The translations under genes and the position numbers were made by a program. Positions 8,808 to 64,000 of a DNA stretch of 64,000 nucleotides are shown piece after piece (within the stretch, counting starts at the first letter, position 1; each line of letters opens with the position of its first letter). A model generated the notes under the pieces. It did not search any database, was not told the DNA's origin, and was given only the letters and a program-made list of their open reading frames with translations. Source of the DNA: Microbacterium lemovicicum (GTDB lineage Bacteria; Actinomycetota; Actinomycetes; Actinomycetales; Microbacteriaceae); the NCBI RefSeq assembly GCF_003991875.1, contig NZ_CP031423.1, positions 496,001 through 560,000 of the forward strand, read 5' to 3'.

Positions 8808-10286
8808 ATGACCGACATGCCCTACCGCCGCAACGAGATCGCCCTGCGATCCGCGACCGTCGGTCCCGTGACGCCGCCCCTGGAAGACCTGCTCTCGCAC
8901 GCCTTCCCCGCCGACTTCGACTCGGTCTTCGAAGGCTCGTCGACGCAGCGGTCGACCATCGGATGCATCATCCCCGCCTACAACGAGGAGGAGTCGATCG
9001 CCCAGGTGATCGAGGGCCTGCTCACGCAGACGCGTGTCCCCGACGTCATCCACGTGGTCGTCAACAACACGAGCGACCAGACGGTCGCGCTGGCCTCGCA
9101 GTACGCCGGTCCGCACGAGATCACCACCGAGCTCGGCGAGCAGTTCACCGAGGTGTTCGTGCACGACATCGGCAAGAACCCCGACAAGAAGGTCGGCGCC
9201 CTCAACTACGGCTACTCGCTCGTCGAGGGCTACGACTACCTGCTCGGCGTCGACGGCGACACCATCGCCGAGGCCCGCGCCGTCGAGTACCTCGAGACCG
9301 AGATCATCAACGACAGCCGCATCGGCGGCATCTCGGCGATCTACTCGATCGACAACAAGCCGTTCAAGGGCCTCGCGTCGTTCCTCATCAGCGGACAGCG
9401 CTCGCAGTTCGCCGCCTTCAACCTGCAGAACCTGCTGCGCGGCAGGAACATGGCGGTGCTCGGCGGTCAGTTCTCGATCTTCTCCACCCACGCCCTGCGC
9501 GAGGTCATGGAGCAGAACCACCAGACGACACCGTGGGTCAAGGACAGCGAGGTCGAGGACTCGCTGCTGTCGCTGCAGATCAAGAGCGCCGGCTACCTCA
9601 CGAAGATCAGCCCCTTCGCCCGCGCCGACGTCGGCGGCATGACCACGCTCAGCGGTCTCGACGCGCAGCAGGTGAAGTGGACCTACGGCGCCATCGAGCT
9701 CATGTGGCCCGGTCAGCGCGGCGACACCAAGGGCCAGCCGCTGCACCCGAACCTTCGGATCCGCTGGTTCGAGAACTTCGGCATGCTGACCAACCTCTTC
9801 GTCCGCATCGCGTTCCTGCTGCTGCTGGCCGGGTCGCTCTCGCTCAGTGCCTTCGTGTTCTCGCCGTGGTGGCTCCTCCCGATCGGCATGGCGGTCCTGC
9901 TCAACCTGCGGATGGCGCTGACCATGGAGTCGCGCACGCGCAAGGACATCCTGTTCGCCGTGCTGATCGTGCCGGCCGAGATCTACATGTGGATCCGGCT
10001 CTCGCACTTCGCGCGCGCCTGGACCCGCTTCCTGTCCAAGAAGAAGGTCGACAACTGGGCCATGCAGGCGAAGGCGGAGAAGGGCGGCGGCTTCGGCCAC
10101 TGGACCCCCGCGATCGTCACGCTCGCCGTGCTCGTCGCCGTGGCGGTCATCTGGATGATGCTCGGCCCGGTCGTGCAGTCCAGCATCCTGTGGGTCGGCT
10201 GGCCCATCGTCGGCGTCGTCACGGTCCTTCAGACCCTGATGATGTTCACCAAGCTCTTCCGTCGTCAGCATGGATACAAGGTCTGA
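8808..10286 (+). CDS. Processive family-2 glycosyltransferase, membrane bound
   Basis: A 492-residue GT2 enzyme of the cellulose/hyaluronan/chitin synthase type. It shows IIPAYNEEES (about 52), GVDGDT as the DxD motif, MAVLGGQFSIFS, SEVEDSLLSL with the catalytic ED, and QQVKW as the QxxRW-like acceptor motif, so it probably extends a beta-linked homopolymer. Three to four membrane helices follow (about 330-485). There is no PilZ domain. The start at 8808 is chosen from family length, and an ATG at 8817 is possible. Divergent from the kinase operon and close to a GH6 gene. Confidence 0.87.
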   Translation: MTDMPYRRNEIALRSATVGPVTPPLEDLLSHAFPADFDSVFEGSSTQRSTIGCIIPAYNEEESIAQVIEGLLTQTRVPDVIHVVVNNTSDQTVALASQYAGPHEITTELGEQFTEVFVHDIGKNPDKKVGALNYGYSLVEGYDYLLGVDGDTIAEARAVEYLETEIINDSRIGGISAIYSIDNKPFKGLASFLISGQRSQFAAFNLQNLLRGRNMAVLGGQFSIFSTHALREVMEQNHQTTPWVKDSEVEDSLLSLQIKSAGYLTKISPFARADVGGMTTLSGLDAQQVKWTYGAIELMWPGQRGDTKGQPLHPNLRIRWFENFGMLTNLFVRIAFLLLLAGSLSLSAFVFSPWWLLPIGMAVLLNLRMALTMESRTRKDILFAVLIVPAEIYMWIRLSHFARAWTRFLSKKKVDNWAMQAKAEKGGGFGHWTPAIVTLAVLVAVAVIWMMLGPVVQSSILWVGWPIVGVVTVLQTLMMFTKLFRRQHGYKV

Positions 10287-10350: not shown

Positions 10351-11322
10351 TCAGGCAGAGGGAGCCGACTGATCGGACGTGAGACGGTAACCGACGCCCC
10401 GCACGGTCTCGATGAATCGAGGCTGTGCGGGGCTGTCGCCGATCTTGCGGCGCAGGTTCGTCATGTGCGCCTCGATCGCCCGCTTGTCGGCCTCGCCGAC
10501 GAAGTATGTGGTCACGTACGACTCGCCGCGCAGCACCAGCGTGAGGTCCGCCTTGCTGCGCACCCGTCGGCGCGATTCCATGAGAGCCGCGAGCAGGTCG
10601 AACTCCGTCCGGGTGAGGTCGACTTCGGCGCCGTCGATGAGAACGATGCGGCTGTCGAGGTCGAGGCGGAGGTTGCGGTGCGCGAGCCAGGAGCCCTCGG
10701 TGTCGAGCTGCGTGGTGGCGATGACGCCCGCGTCCGCCACCCGCTGCACCAGGACGCCGGCGCCCGTCGACGTCGGCGCGGCTCCGCCGGACGGCGCGGA
10801 GGTGAGGATCGGGATCTGCGCCGGCTCTGCGGATGCCGCGGGCACGCGCACCTCGGCGGTGGAGGTCACCTGCGGCCGTGCGCCGGGGAAGGAGGGGCCG
10901 GCGCTTTCCTGCGTGCGCACCGGCGTCTGCGGCGTCGCGGACCGCGGACGACGGAGCATCGCCTCCACGCGCGCGCGGAACTCTCGGGGGCGGAACGGCT
11001 TGGTGATGTACTCGTCCGCTCCGGCGCTCAGTCCGAGGACGACGTCGGCCTCTTCGCCCATCGCGGTGATCATGATGATGTAGGTGTCGCTCTGGGCGCG
11101 GATGCGCCGGGCGGCCTCGATCCCGTCGAGACCGGGCATGTTCACATCGAGCGTGGTGATCAGCGGCTGATAGGACAGCACCGCCTGGATGCCGTCGATG
11201 CCGTTGCCGACCGAGACGGTCGAGAAACCCGCGGCCTCGAGGACGTCCACCAGCAGGTGGCGGAGGTCGGCGTCGTCCTCCACGATCACGGCCGTGCGAC
11301 CAGCAGGCGTCGTCTCGGTCAT
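10351..11322 (-). CDS. OmpR/PhoB-type response regulator with long linker
   Basis: A 323-residue regulator. The receiver domain (10-125) has the acidic pair in VEDDADL, phosphoacceptor Asp59 in TTLDVNMPG, Thr86 and Lys108 in ITKPF. A winged-helix domain (about 215-315) ends IETVRGVGYRL. The linker of about 90 residues, rich in Pro, Ser and Ala, is unusually long for this family. The ATG at 11322 has a GGAG site. Probable partner of the kinase at 5796-7535, although the synthase gene lies between them. Confidence 0.9.
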   Translation of the reverse strand: MTETTPAGRTAVIVEDDADLRHLLVDVLEAAGFSTVSVGNGIDGIQAVLSYQPLITTLDVNMPGLDGIEAARRIRAQSDTYIIMITAMGEEADVVLGLSAGADEYITKPFRPREFRARVEAMLRRPRSATPQTPVRTQESAGPSFPGARPQVTSTAEVRVPAASAEPAQIPILTSAPSGGAAPTSTGAGVLVQRVADAGVIATTQLDTEGSWLAHRNLRLDLDSRIVLIDGAEVDLTRTEFDLLAALMESRRRVRSKADLTLVLRGESYVTTYFVGEADKRAIEAHMTNLRRKIGDSPAQPRFIETVRGVGYRLTSDQSAPSA

Positions 11323-60218: not shown

Positions 60219-60366
60219 CGACGCACCCCCGGCCGCTCCCGGCGGGGCCCCGCGCGGACGGTACCCCGTAACCCCCTAAGGGGCCCGGGGGCGTCCCCGC
60301 AAACCCCCCGCCGCAGCATCCCATTGTCCGGAGTCCTCCCCGATGCGACCCCCGGTGCCCGGCTCG

Positions 60367-60372
60367 TAGCGT
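60367..60372 (+). promoter_or_regulatory. -10 element (TAGCGT) of the DNS-repeat locus
   Basis: TAGCGT lies 48 bases before the ATG at 60421. The predicted leader holds a small CGGGG/CCCCG hairpin and a GGGAAAG site. Upstream, 60258-60310 is an unusual C- and G-tract-rich stretch. Confidence 0.45.
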
Positions 60373-60420: not shown

Positions 60421-61551
60421 ATGGCGGACAACACCAGCGTCGCTGGCTCCTACAACACCGGCGTGTGGGGCTCGGGCAACGAGGACAACACGACCAACAA
60501 CGCGAACCTGAACCTCGGCATCGCGGACTCCTTCAACGCGGACGACTCCACGAACGACAGCGGCAACAGCGCCGTGGGCATCGCCGATTCCTACAACGAG
60601 GACAACTCGGTCAACGACAGCGGCAACGCCACGACCGACATCACCGACTCGTGGAACACCGACTCCAACGACGTCGTCACCGACACCGCCGACTCGTTCA
60701 ACGACAACTCGGACAACTCCGACAACTCGGACAACTCGGACAACTCCGACAACTCGGACAACAGCGACAATTCCGACAACAGCGACAACTCGGACAACTC
60801 CGACAACTCGGACAACTCCGACAACAGCGACAACTCGGACAACTCCACGACCGACAACAGCGACAACTCGGTCAACGACTCCTACAACGACAACTCGGTC
60901 GACATCACGGAGGACTCGTACAACTCCTGGACCGACGACAACTCGGTGACCGTCGGCGTCCGCGACTACAGCACGGGCCTCGGCAACCTCAGCATCGGCG
61001 GCGGCGCCGCAGGCACCGGCACCGGTGACGTGTGGGTCAACAACCAGAACACCATCATCGACCAGTCGGTCAACGGCGCCGGTGACGGCGGCTTCGCCGG
61101 CGGCGGGTCGGCGGTCGTGGCCTCGGGTGAGGACTCGATGGCTGCGGGCGACGGCATCAGCATCGTCAACACGATGGACTCGTCCGAGACCATCACGGCG
61201 ACCGACGGCAGCGTCAACATCGGCAACGAGACGACGATCACCACCGTCACCGACTCGTACAACGAGTACAACGAGACCAACGAGTGGACCGACAACTCGG
61301 TCGACACCACGGTCACCGACTCGTACAACGACAACTCGAGCGACTGGAGCGCGACGGACTCGTTCAACGACAGCTCCGCCGACTGGAGCGCGGCCGACTC
61401 GTTCAACGACAACTCGACCGACTACAGCGCGATGGACTCGTTCAACGACGAGAGCAGCCAGCTGTGGACGACGGACATCAACGCCGACGTCGACGTCATC
61501 ATCGACAGCCAGAACGCCGCCGTCCTCGACGGCTCCGACTTCGCCGGCTGA
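60421..61551 (+). CDS. DNS-repeat acidic protein, copy 1
   Basis: A 376-residue protein of no family I recognise, dominated by Asp, Asn, Ser and Thr. N-terminal 20-residue repeats (GIADSFNADDSTNDSGNSAV) precede sixteen uninterrupted Asp-Asn-Ser triplets at residues 95-142. A conserved Gly-rich block follows (178-248: VGVRDYSTG, DVWVNNQNTI, QSVNGAGDG, GGGSAVVASG), then four 13-residue repeats (299-350: TDSFNDSSADWSA). It has one Arg (VGVRDY) and no Lys, His, Cys or Pro. No signal peptide or membrane helix. Probably disordered or a beta-solenoid. The downstream IniA-like GTPase suggests an IniB-like role (inference). Confidence 0.85.
   Translation: MADNTSVAGSYNTGVWGSGNEDNTTNNANLNLGIADSFNADDSTNDSGNSAVGIADSYNEDNSVNDSGNATTDITDSWNTDSNDVVTDTADSFNDNSDNSDNSDNSDNSDNSDNSDNSDNSDNSDNSDNSDNSDNSDNSDNSTTDNSDNSVNDSYNDNSVDITEDSYNSWTDDNSVTVGVRDYSTGLGNLSIGGGAAGTGTGDVWVNNQNTIIDQSVNGAGDGGFAGGGSAVVASGEDSMAAGDGISIVNTMDSSETITATDGSVNIGNETTITTVTDSYNEYNETNEWTDNSVDTTVTDSYNDNSSDWSATDSFNDSSADWSAADSFNDNSTDYSAMDSFNDESSQLWTTDINADVDVIIDSQNAAVLDGSDFAG
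60703..60846 (+). repeat. 9-base tandem repeat, 16 units (copy 1)
   Basis: Sixteen GAC-AAC-Ser units with the Ser codon varying among TCG, TCC and AGC, and one AAT for Asn. Encodes the Asp-Asn-Ser run at residues 95-142. Confidence 0.95.
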
Positions 61552-61559
61552 CACAGACC

Positions 61560-61618
61560 GCCCGGCCGCCGCCGCCTCGTGGCGGCCGGGCACCACATCC
61601 GTCCTCCCCGGACGGATG
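61560..61618 (+). terminator. Two hairpins between the DNS-repeat genes
   Basis: Stem 61560-61570 with 61581-61591 (11 bp, perfect) and stem 61596-61604 with 61610-61618 (9 bp, perfect) directly after the first gene. They could terminate part of the transcript and set the ratio of copy 1 to downstream products. Confidence 0.65.
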
Positions 61619-61655
61619 ACACGACTTCACCACCCTCTTCCAGAAAGCGACGGCC

Positions 61656-62801
61656 ATGGCCACCTTCGACGCCACAGACGACTCGTTCAACACCCGCGTG
61701 CGCGACTCGTTCAACACCACCACCACCACCAACAACGCCACCCTCGGCGCCGACCTCGACAACGTCGGCAACACCGACGCCTCGACCAACAACAGCGGCA
61801 ACTCCGCCTGGTCGATCGACGGCAGCGGCAACACCGACAACTCGACCAACGACAGCGGCAACGTCGACTGGTCGATCGACGGCAGCGGCAACACCGACTC
61901 GAACGACACCACCACCACCACCACGGGGTCGGGCAACGACAACTCCGACAACTCCGACAACTCCGACAACTCGGACAACTCGGACAACTCCGACAACAGC
62001 GACAACTCGGACAATTCCGACAACAGCGACAACTCGGACAACTCGGACAACAGCGACAACTCGGACAACTCCGACAACTCGGTGACGGACAACAGCGACA
62101 ACTCCGTCAACGACTCGTACAACGACAACAGCCTCGGTGTCATCAGCGGCTCGTACAACAGCAGCATGGACGACCACTCGGTGGCCGTCGGTGTCCGCGA
62201 CTACAACACCGGCATGGGCGACCTCGACCTCGGCGGTGCCGGCGGCGGCGGCGGAGACGTCTGGGTCAACAACCAGAACACGATCGTCGACCAGTCGGTG
62301 AACGGCGCCGGCGACGGCGACTTCTCGGGCGGCGGCTCCGCGGTCGTGGCCTCCGGCGACGGCTCGATGGCGGCCGGCGAGGGCATCTCGATCACGCAGG
62401 TGCGCGACTCCTCCACCACGATCTCGGCCGACGGCGGCGACGTGAACCTCAACAACGACACGCGCATCACCACCATCGACGGCTCGTACAACACCTCCAC
62501 CGTCGAGACCACGTGGACCGACAACTCCGTCGACACCAGCATCGCCGACTCATACAACGACAACTCCGACAGCTACACCGCGGCCGACTCGTTCAACGAC
62601 AGCTCGGACAGCTACACGTCGACCGACTCGTTCAACGACAACTCGGACAGCTACAGCGCCGCCGACTCGTTCAACGACCTGTCGGTCACGCACGACGAGA
62701 GCAACTGGAACATCGACGCCGACGTGATCTGGGGCAGCGACGACTCCGTCATCGCCCAGGACGCGACGGTGGACGTCGACCCCGGCGACTGGGCAAGCTG
62801 A
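61656..62801 (+). CDS. DNS-repeat acidic protein, copy 2
   Basis: A 381-residue tandem paralogue of the preceding protein. The Asp-Asn-Ser run occupies exactly the same residues (95-142, sixteen units), the conserved block starts in register at 178 (VGVRDYNTG; DVWVNNQNTIVDQSVNGAGD), and four 13-residue repeats follow at 297-348 (ADSFNDSSDSYTS). The N-terminus differs (SIDGSGNTDNSTNDSGN repeats). No Lys or Cys, and a single Pro, in DPGDWAS. ATG at 61656 with a weak GAAAG site. The GTPase gene begins 98 bases after its stop. Confidence 0.85.
   Translation: MATFDATDDSFNTRVRDSFNTTTTTNNATLGADLDNVGNTDASTNNSGNSAWSIDGSGNTDNSTNDSGNVDWSIDGSGNTDSNDTTTTTTGSGNDNSDNSDNSDNSDNSDNSDNSDNSDNSDNSDNSDNSDNSDNSDNSDNSVTDNSDNSVNDSYNDNSLGVISGSYNSSMDDHSVAVGVRDYNTGMGDLDLGGAGGGGGDVWVNNQNTIVDQSVNGAGDGDFSGGGSAVVASGDGSMAAGEGISITQVRDSSTTISADGGDVNLNNDTRITTIDGSYNTSTVETTWTDNSVDTSIADSYNDNSDSYTAADSFNDSSDSYTSTDSFNDNSDSYSAADSFNDLSVTHDESNWNIDADVIWGSDDSVIAQDATVDVDPGDWAS
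61938..62081 (+). repeat. 9-base tandem repeat, 16 units (copy 2)
   Basis: Sixteen GAC-AAC-Ser units. The rare GACAATTCC unit also occurs once here, as in copy 1, pointing to common descent of the arrays. Confidence 0.95.
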
Positions 62802-62899
62802 GGATCCGTATCCCGACCGGCACCGAATAGCGATCAGGACCTGACGGCCCTGGGTGGGAGACCGCCCGGGGTCGTCGGGCGTCGAACGAGAGGTCGACC

Positions 62900-64000
62900 A
62901 TGCCCCCCACCACCCGTACGACCGAGGATGCCGCAGCCGACGTGGTCGCGGCCCGTCCCGCCGCCGACCTGCTCGCGCTGGTGGAGCGCACGGCGGGCCT
63001 GTCCGACTCCGTCGGACGCTCGGACCTGGTCTCCCGGCTCTCCGAGACCCGGCAGCGGCTGATCGACCCCTACGTGCGGGTGATCATCGTCGGGCAGTTC
63101 AAACAGGGCAAGAGCAAACTCGTCAATGCGCTGGTGAACGCACCCGCGTGCCCCGTGGACGACGACATCGCCACCAGCGTGCCGACCTCCGTCTCATACG
63201 GCGAGGAACCCGAGGCGTTCGCCCTGATCCGCCGCGACGAGGGCACCGAGCCGTCGATCGAGCGGCGGCCGATCGCGCTGGACGACCTCGCCGAGTTCGT
63301 CTCCGAGAAGGGCCAGGGCGGTAAGGGCCTCGAGGTCGTGGGCGCAGAGGTGAAGATCCCGCGCGCCCTGCTGAAGGGCGGCCTCCGCCTCGTCGACTCC
63401 CCGGGCGTCGGGGGAGTCGAGTCGACCCGCTCCGTCAGCACGCTCGCGGCCCTGTCGACCGCGCACGCCGTGCTGCTCGTCTCCGACGCCTCGCAGGAGT
63501 ACACCGAGCCGGAGGTGCAGTTCCTGCGGCACGCGCTGCGCGTGTCGCCGAACGTGGCCGCGGTGCTGTCGAAGACCGACATCTATCCCGAGTGGCGCCA
63601 GATCGAGCAGATCGACCGGTCGCACCTCGGCGACGTGGGCCGCATCCCGATGTTCGCCGTCTCCAGTGACCTGCGGATGATGGCGGCCCAGGAGCAGGAC
63701 CGCGAGCTCAACGAGGAGTCCGGGTTCCCGGCCCTCGTCGCCCACCTTCGTCGCGACGTGCTCGGGCGGGCGGAGGCCGTGCACCAGCGCGCCGCCGTGC
63801 ACGACCTCGTCTCGGTCGTCGACCAGCTGGGCATGGCCGTGAAGACCGAACTGCGCGCGCTGCAGCATCCGGAGGACACCCCGGTGATGATCGCCCGTCT
63901 CGAGGACGCCAAGGCGCGCGCGGACGAGTTCCGCAGCCGCTCCTCGCGCTGGCAGGTCACGCTCTCCGACGGCATCGCCGATCTCATCTCCGACACCGAG
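62900..64000 (+). CDS. IniA-like dynamin-family GTPase (partial, runs off right edge)
   Basis: The first 367 codons of a bacterial dynamin-like protein. G1 GQFKQGKSKL (Lys71, Ser72), G3 DSPGVGG (166-172) and G4 SKTD (224-227). DLVSRLSETRQRLIDPYVRV, SDASQEYTEPEVQFLR and DRELNEESGFPALV resemble M. tuberculosis IniA as I recall it. Such proteins bind and remodel membranes, and IniA is induced by cell-wall inhibitors. ATG at 62900 with GAGAGG upstream. The helical stalk and membrane-binding part lie beyond the window. Confidence 0.92.
   Translation, partial: MPPTTRTTEDAAADVVAARPAADLLALVERTAGLSDSVGRSDLVSRLSETRQRLIDPYVRVIIVGQFKQGKSKLVNALVNAPACPVDDDIATSVPTSVSYGEEPEAFALIRRDEGTEPSIERRPIALDDLAEFVSEKGQGGKGLEVVGAEVKIPRALLKGGLRLVDSPGVGGVESTRSVSTLAALSTAHAVLLVSDASQEYTEPEVQFLRHALRVSPNVAAVLSKTDIYPEWRQIEQIDRSHLGDVGRIPMFAVSSDLRMMAAQEQDRELNEESGFPALVAHLRRDVLGRAEAVHQRAAVHDLVSVVDQLGMAVKTELRALQHPEDTPVMIARLEDAKARADEFRSRSSRWQVTLSDGIADLISDTE

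Follow-up and report, generated by a model that had tools for sequence, protein, structure and literature searches.

At the right-hand end of a 64,000-nucleotide stretch of DNA from the soil-type actinobacterium Microbacterium lemovicicum (positions 496001–560000 of a single-contig 3.56-Mb genome; hereafter, the window) lie two tandem genes, rep1 and rep2, whose acidic products contain long runs of the tripeptide Asp-Asn-Ser (DNS). Both stand directly upstream, on the same strand, of a gene for a dynamin-like GTPase. This end of the window probably belongs to an envelope-stress locus of the iniBAC type that has been rearranged into two arms and whose IniB has been split and duplicated. The locus, designated L004, was followed past the window over genome positions 554000–570000, an L004 coordinate being the window coordinate minus 57999. 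It comprises (i) a forward arm, rep1-rep2-iniA-iniC, and (ii) a convergent arm on the opposite strand, past the window, with an hsp70-like gene, an iniR-like gene, iniB, and the gene for a small membrane protein.

The dynamin pair and the IniB paralogues

The GTPase (634 amino acids (aa); L004 4901–6805) matches Mycobacterium smegmatis IniA (PDB 6j72) with 430.8 bits over residues 25–602 and is, by this homology, an IniA orthologue. The preliminary description of this DNA had proposed looking to the right of position 64000 for a second dynamin, and one is present: a 554-aa protein is encoded 3′ of iniA on the same strand, with a Dynamin_N match at genome 560962–561372. It was compared with 11 genomes of other families, defined by an IniB N-domain match (over the cut-off in nine) together with an IniA match. 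Its best matches, at 41–49% identity, lie 45–638 bases after the IniA match and on the same strand in all 11; because they directly follow IniA throughout, the second dynamin is identified as IniC. Two further genomes of other families with weak IniB N-domain matches, G346 and G438, have no IniA match.

On the opposite strand, 2.3 kb past the end of iniA, a 340-aa protein is encoded whose N-terminal domain is that of IniB (NF038175; 73.5 bits, the cut-off being 40). Residues 114–256 of this IniB align with rep2 (44% over 142 aa, E 5e-13) and with rep1 (43% over 144 aa, E 4e-11), in both cases over the segment containing NTIVDQSVN and AVVASGD, while rep1 and rep2 are 61% identical to each other across 240 aa. 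Since the middle part of IniB is homologous to both, the DNS proteins are IniB paralogues. Neither has an NF038175 match at E ≤ 1, which makes them relatives of the IniB core and not IniB itself. Judged by sequence, then, rep1 and rep2 are paralogues that have kept the acidic core, and not the N domain, beside a surviving IniB. The GC difference between third and second codon positions (GC3−GC2) is 0.53 in the rep1 gene and 0.50 in the rep2 gene, similar to that of iniA (0.49).

The preliminary description had proposed an iniBAC-type locus in which two acidic repeat proteins without the IniB N-terminal region occupy the IniB position ahead of an IniA-like GTPase, and this is borne out by the finding of IniA, IniC, and the IniB N domain. 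Its further view that IniB had been replaced survives in part. The position is indeed filled by proteins that lack the N domain (hereafter, N-less), but IniB itself has not been lost and is encoded convergently in the same locus; loss and replacement of IniB is therefore rejected. With iniB convergent to iniA-iniC, the three genes do not form one operon here.

Table 1. Features at the right-hand end of the window (window coordinates; ORF, open reading frame; nt, nucleotides)
Feature	Position	Strand	Basis or remark
Putative IniR site: promoter box CCCCGATGC for the arm with the repeat proteins and IniA	60338..60346	+	83 nt before start codon; similar box 5′ of iniB
−10-like element TAGCGT	60367..60372	+	20 nt after the 9-base box
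rep1, N-domain-less IniB paralogue, 376 aa, net charge −76	60421..61551	+	ORF list, homology, composition
rep1 (DNS)16 tract, residues 95–142	60703..60846	+	9-bp tandem array confirmed real
rep1 IniB-core homology region	61030..61335	+	Alignment to IniB core
rep2, N-domain-less IniB paralogue, 381 aa, net charge −69	61656..62801	+	ORF list, homology, composition
rep2 (DNS)16 tract, residues 95–142	61938..62081	+	9-bp tandem array confirmed real
rep2 IniB-core homology region	62259..62564	+	Alignment to IniB core
IniA orthologue, first part of 634 codons	62900..64000 (stops at L004 6805, 804 bases past the window)	+	6j72 match

Gene pairing and descent across genomes

The pairing of repeat protein and dynamin extends to relatives. 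A scan of one genome per species (84,980 species) with two peptide patterns taken from the DNS proteins returned 45 loci; such a scan does not reach relatives in which the two patterns are missing, and its loci include close relatives as well as loci from one genome (such as L050 and L038). IniA was not required, so its pairing with the repeat proteins is not built into the result. Forty loci were labelled N-less, one of which (L076) was left out of the count because a contig end falls inside its gene, which may be IniB. In 39 of the 39 others, IniA comes next after the one or more N-less genes and has their orientation; no other labelled gene intervenes, and the gap between open frames is at most 321 bases (in L058, the scripted gene order is disturbed by an overlong IniC open frame). 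The notion that the DNS genes are unrelated low-complexity genes that happen to lie beside a dynamin is rejected on the basis of this adjacency and of the IniB homology. Two N-less genes occur in 19 or 20 loci; by script, 20 loci have two and 20, including L076, have one. A single N-less gene with an unsure start is found in L081, L082, L085, L086, L087, and L091, several of which have an open repeat-rich stretch 5′ of the called start.

Wherever it is visible in the N-less loci, IniB lies on the opposite strand (35 of 35); the L068 locus continues in L073, on the same contig, and is also convergent. The remaining five of the 45 loci are three from Arthrobacter/Paenarthrobacter with ordinary gene order, L073, and the short L088. 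The last, from a Mycobacterium sp. metagenome-assembled genome, and L051, from a Planococcus sp., are nested among Microbacterium loci in trees and are probably contamination or wrongly named.

Of 150 genomes of the family, the same 11 have both IniA and the IniB N domain, whereas a core of the rep2 type is present in four of these and in none of the 139 others. The family loci fall into two layouts. In L004, L038, L039, and L040, iniA-iniC comes after one or two N-less genes, and the hsp70-like gene, iniR, iniB, and the membrane protein gene form a convergent unit. In L041–L046, the order is hsp70-like, iniR, iniB, iniA, iniC; L047 agrees with them as far as its contig edge, which falls within iniA. 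The order (Hsp70-)IniR-IniB-IniA is thus kept in ten loci, namely L041–L047 and the three from Arthrobacter/Paenarthrobacter. The rearranged form had been taken in the preliminary description for the Microbacteriaceae counterpart of the mycobacterial operon, a title that does not stand, as iniB still immediately precedes iniA in 7 of the 11 family genomes that have IniA. Within the window's genus, the core was found in 15 of 59 genomes, with two or three copies each. A phylum-wide set of 396 genomes yielded the core in five and the IniB N domain in 15, of which 11 are over the cut-off. In eight genomes of one family (f6, presumably Mycobacteriaceae), the N domain is present but a search for the conserved IniB core gave no match.

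The loci of ordinary layout (L041–L046, L077, L084, and L092, from Microbacteriaceae and Arthrobacter/Paenarthrobacter) contain the same genes, including a convergent membrane protein gene after iniC. Immediately ahead of IniA they have a single IniB, which combines N domain and core and often ends in a tail rich in DNS or DSFN; they have no N-less paralogue. The mycobacterial iniR-iniB*-iniBAC locus, as presented in passages of PMC5760070, likewise has the IniB N domain, IniA, and IniC, together with an IniR-type regulator of which the iniR-like gene is the putative counterpart; the same passages place a dnaK-like gene beside iniR in M. smegmatis and describe an additional IniB-related gene, iniB*. 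Unlike the mycobacterial locus, the locus described here has IniB split from IniA and convergent to it, N-less paralogues ahead of IniA, and an added gene for a small membrane protein. An extra IniB-family gene in an ini locus is also known from the Rv0340-family IniB-related proteins (NF038176). IniB of M. lemovicicum scores 43 bits against this model, whose cut-off is 100, and the match covers N-terminal residues 9–74, a part not found in the DNS proteins. The locus is thus not a categorically new system; it is a variant of the iniBAC locus with (i) an N-less IniB-related subfamily, (ii) a conserved small membrane protein gene, and (iii) a common promoter box. In the open-licence PMC literature, no title on iniBAC genes outside mycobacteria or on DNS proteins appears among the matches listed.

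Trees separate the two layouts. In an IniA tree of 48 rows (L047, L050, L058, L065, L066, and L076 left out), the 39 N-less loci lie on one side of a single branch with support of 100/100. In a core tree of 95 rows, with uneven letter make-up flagged in 16 and with L050, L057, L058, L062, L063, L066, L068, L076, L078, and L085 left out, all 50 N-less proteins are separate from the 45 IniB cores (support 100/99). First and second N-less copies form separate groups in several sub-lineages, and copies from the same genome cluster together in the window's genome, L039, L052, and L079, which fits gene conversion or repeated duplication. The simplest reading, with the root placed at midpoint only, is one split of IniB followed by duplication.

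Composition, promoters, and possible role of the acidic proteins

The products of rep1 and rep2 contain only one and five Lys/Arg residues, respectively. Relatives of rep2 exceed chance: in a 5.8 billion-sequence database, from which 7984 candidates were scored, 160 proteins reach E ≤ 1e-6, the best 120 of which were listed. The 106 proteins that were aligned (104 relatives plus rep1 and rep2) have a median length of 283.5 aa, a median net charge of −53, and a median of 3 Lys/Arg; they are hyperacidic and poor in Lys/Arg and Cys, with a median of 15 S.N motifs per protein, the spacing of which has no single period. A long DNS run, prominent in the two repeat proteins that the preliminary description named after it, does not define the group. 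The longest run is one unit in 51 proteins, two in 31, three in 22, and 16 in 2, the last being the window's own pair. With no more than three consecutive units in 104 of 106 proteins, the long run is rejected as a functional unit; it is a local expansion, and a protein of L040, outside the 106-protein set, also has one. Slippage as the sole cause of the run is rejected as well, because the Ser codons are mixed (7 TCG, 6 TCC, and 3 AGC, alike in both tracts), which points to selection on the protein. That the two tracts agree in length, residue position, and Ser codon counts suggests gene conversion between rep1 and rep2, by which they may have been homogenised. Neither protein matches a Pfam family. 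Against NCBIfam, the only match is one of rep2, at 16.6 bits against a cut-off of 201, and there is no credible family. No hydrophobic segment was found in rep1 or rep2, which excludes a usual signal peptide or anchor.

The regions upstream of the first N-less gene and of iniB have an element in common: CCCCGAY, often with a GGGG left arm, followed 21–23 nt later by TAnnnT. Box and −10 are present together in 18 of 28 N-less promoters and 38 of 44 iniB promoters, compared with 0.57% and 0.38% of 6000 random 150-nt windows from the same loci and 0.07% and 0% of shuffles. These counts leave out L050 (judged the same genome as L038), L073 (the other half of L068), L076 (contig edge), the loci with unsure starts listed above, the second L079 copy, upstream regions shorter than 90 nt, and near-duplicates. 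Among ordinary-layout loci, the box is found in L043, L046, L047, and the Arthrobacter ones. Its occurrence on both arms suggests joint control by IniR through a putative site, such that one predicted regulator box would serve two promoters of one locus. The spacing of box and −10 fits a LuxR-type activator bound near −35, and the iniR-like gene stands in the expected place and encodes a LuxR-type helix-turn-helix at the protein end. IniR is the obvious candidate to bind the box because, according to passages of PMC5760070, it binds directly upstream of iniBAC in M. tuberculosis; a word search of the main text of that paper found no binding-site motif. In L079 (Microbacterium kunmingense), the second N-less gene has its own near-copy of the promoter region (9781–10000 and 10950–11169), as if both had been duplicated together.

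In the working proposed for the locus, IniR would sense envelope damage and turn on both arms through the common box. IniA and IniC would then remodel or cut the cytoplasmic membrane, an activity that others have demonstrated in vitro for M. smegmatis IniA. The portions of PMC6715688 cited here report that IniA binds and cuts membranes with GTP, that membrane binding is salt-sensitive, and that R488 is needed for it, the R488D mutant not being retained on membranes. The aligned arginine is kept in M. lemovicicum at residue 509, given a two-residue numbering offset read from the P-loop Ser. The DNS proteins may act as soluble and hyperacidic partners of IniA/IniC, binding or buffering the basic face with which these contact the membrane; they could keep the dynamins in reserve or set their spacing within a coat. 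IniB, with its N domain, might act in the same way but in one fixed location, for which the membrane protein of the adjacent gene is a candidate. Because the DNS proteins are hyperacidic, have neither a confident fold nor a hydrophobic segment, and are encoded directly ahead of IniA, soluble acidic partners are favored over surface proteins. A partnership with the dynamins is nevertheless a tentative assignment with somewhat less than an even chance of being right. By a wider and rather doubtful extension, IniB-type proteins would constitute a new class of dynamin partner, hyperacidic, mostly disordered, and co-expressed with a dynamin pair, that sets the time and place of coat formation, and in the Microbacterium lineage this partner would have been divided, with IniB as the anchored form and the DNS proteins as mobile ones. 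These genera are not known to make mycolic acids, and the core job of the system thus cannot depend on them. The natural split separates the IniB N domain from the acidic part, in harmless organisms that are readily handled, and offers a setting for finding out what IniB does. In mycobacteria, the iniBAC promoter is the one that ethambutol and isoniazid induce most strongly and the role of IniB is unclear, according to passages of Boot et al. (PMC5760070), and part of PMC13413693 reports that iniBAC overexpression improved growth of M. smegmatis under drugs.

A number of observations speak against the proposed envelope-stress working. For the box, (i) the strict form plus −10 is missing from 10 of 28 DNS-arm and 6 of 44 iniB promoters, in counts made on the same sequences in which the box was found; (ii) four of the seven ordinary-layout family loci (L041, L042, L044, and L045) have no exact CCCCGAY; and (iii) the 9-bp box core occurs 341 times in the genome, compared with 114 for a control. 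For the proteins, the IniR-like product (full 985-aa frame) scores 357.7 bits against NF038181 over profile positions 278–826 of 827, far below the equivalog cut-off of 750, and the residue aligned with IniA R63 is Pro85, R63 having been mutated together with S50 in a GTPase-defective IniA mutant (PMC6715688, in the portions cited). AlphaFold gave no confident fold, with a mean predicted local distance difference test (pLDDT) score of 50.5 for rep2 (106 rows) and 49.3 for a shorter relative, P0011 (60 rows); 39 and 40 residues, respectively, lie at pLDDT 70–90. Finally, passages of Boot et al. (PMC5760070) mention mutants with raised iniBAC, from earlier work cited there, that had no apparent phenotype.

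The same composition would also suit another role, in which the acidic proteins are crowding or condensate scaffolds that, once tethered, bend the membrane by steric pressure while the dynamins cut the buds, the output being vesicle release and not coat buffering. Hyperacidity, scarcity of Lys/Arg and Cys, the recurrent S.N motifs, and low prediction confidence outside about 40 residues all agree with this, and Boot et al. speculate, in the passages cited, on IniA/IniC vesiculation and a high amount of IniB. However, rep1 and rep2 have neither a hydrophobic segment nor the N domain, and a scaffolding role is possible but on the unlikely side. A function of these IniB paralogues in binding calcium or another cation, and in signalling or buffering ions during envelope leakage, is improbable: a net charge as low as −76 and runs of Asp/Asn/Ser would be in keeping with cation binding, but the Pfam and NCBIfam results include no known cation-binding motif. 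In a further alternative, the locus would be an anti-phage dynamin system of the Leo kind and not one for envelope stress. Both dynamins match the PADLOC LeoA/LeoBC models, and the distribution within the genus is patchy. These matches are weak (24.8–58.5 bits), though, the IniA match is far stronger, and IniB and an IniR-like gene adjoin, all of which renders a Leo system highly improbable. Asp/Ser-rich repeats resemble Sdr-type surface stalks, and one relative (P0013) bears the database name Fibrinogen-binding protein, but surface or secreted adhesins that lie near dynamins by chance are scarcely credible given the IniB homology, the constant IniA neighbor, and the absence of a hydrophobic segment from rep1 and rep2.

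Neighboring genes of the convergent arm

The Hsp70-like protein (L004 12755–14362, − strand) has its best Hsp70 match at residues 86–357, corresponding to profile positions 104–373 of 599, followed by a hydrophobic segment at 448–466 and a Pro/Thr-rich tail. It resembles a membrane-anchored Hsp70 ATPase domain beside iniR, with only the ATPase half matched.

The gene for the small membrane protein (L004 8349–9080, − strand) is convergent to iniC in both layouts. Its product has no Pfam or NCBIfam match, nor was a match found in the 13 other-family genomes with an IniB N-domain match, a search that had no positive control and carries little weight alone. The protein has three hydrophobic segments in the window's genome and four in seven of the eight members examined. 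In the six ordinary-layout loci L041–L046, the gene lies convergent after iniC with profile scores of 98–269 bits, L044 being one of the four members from which the profile was built.

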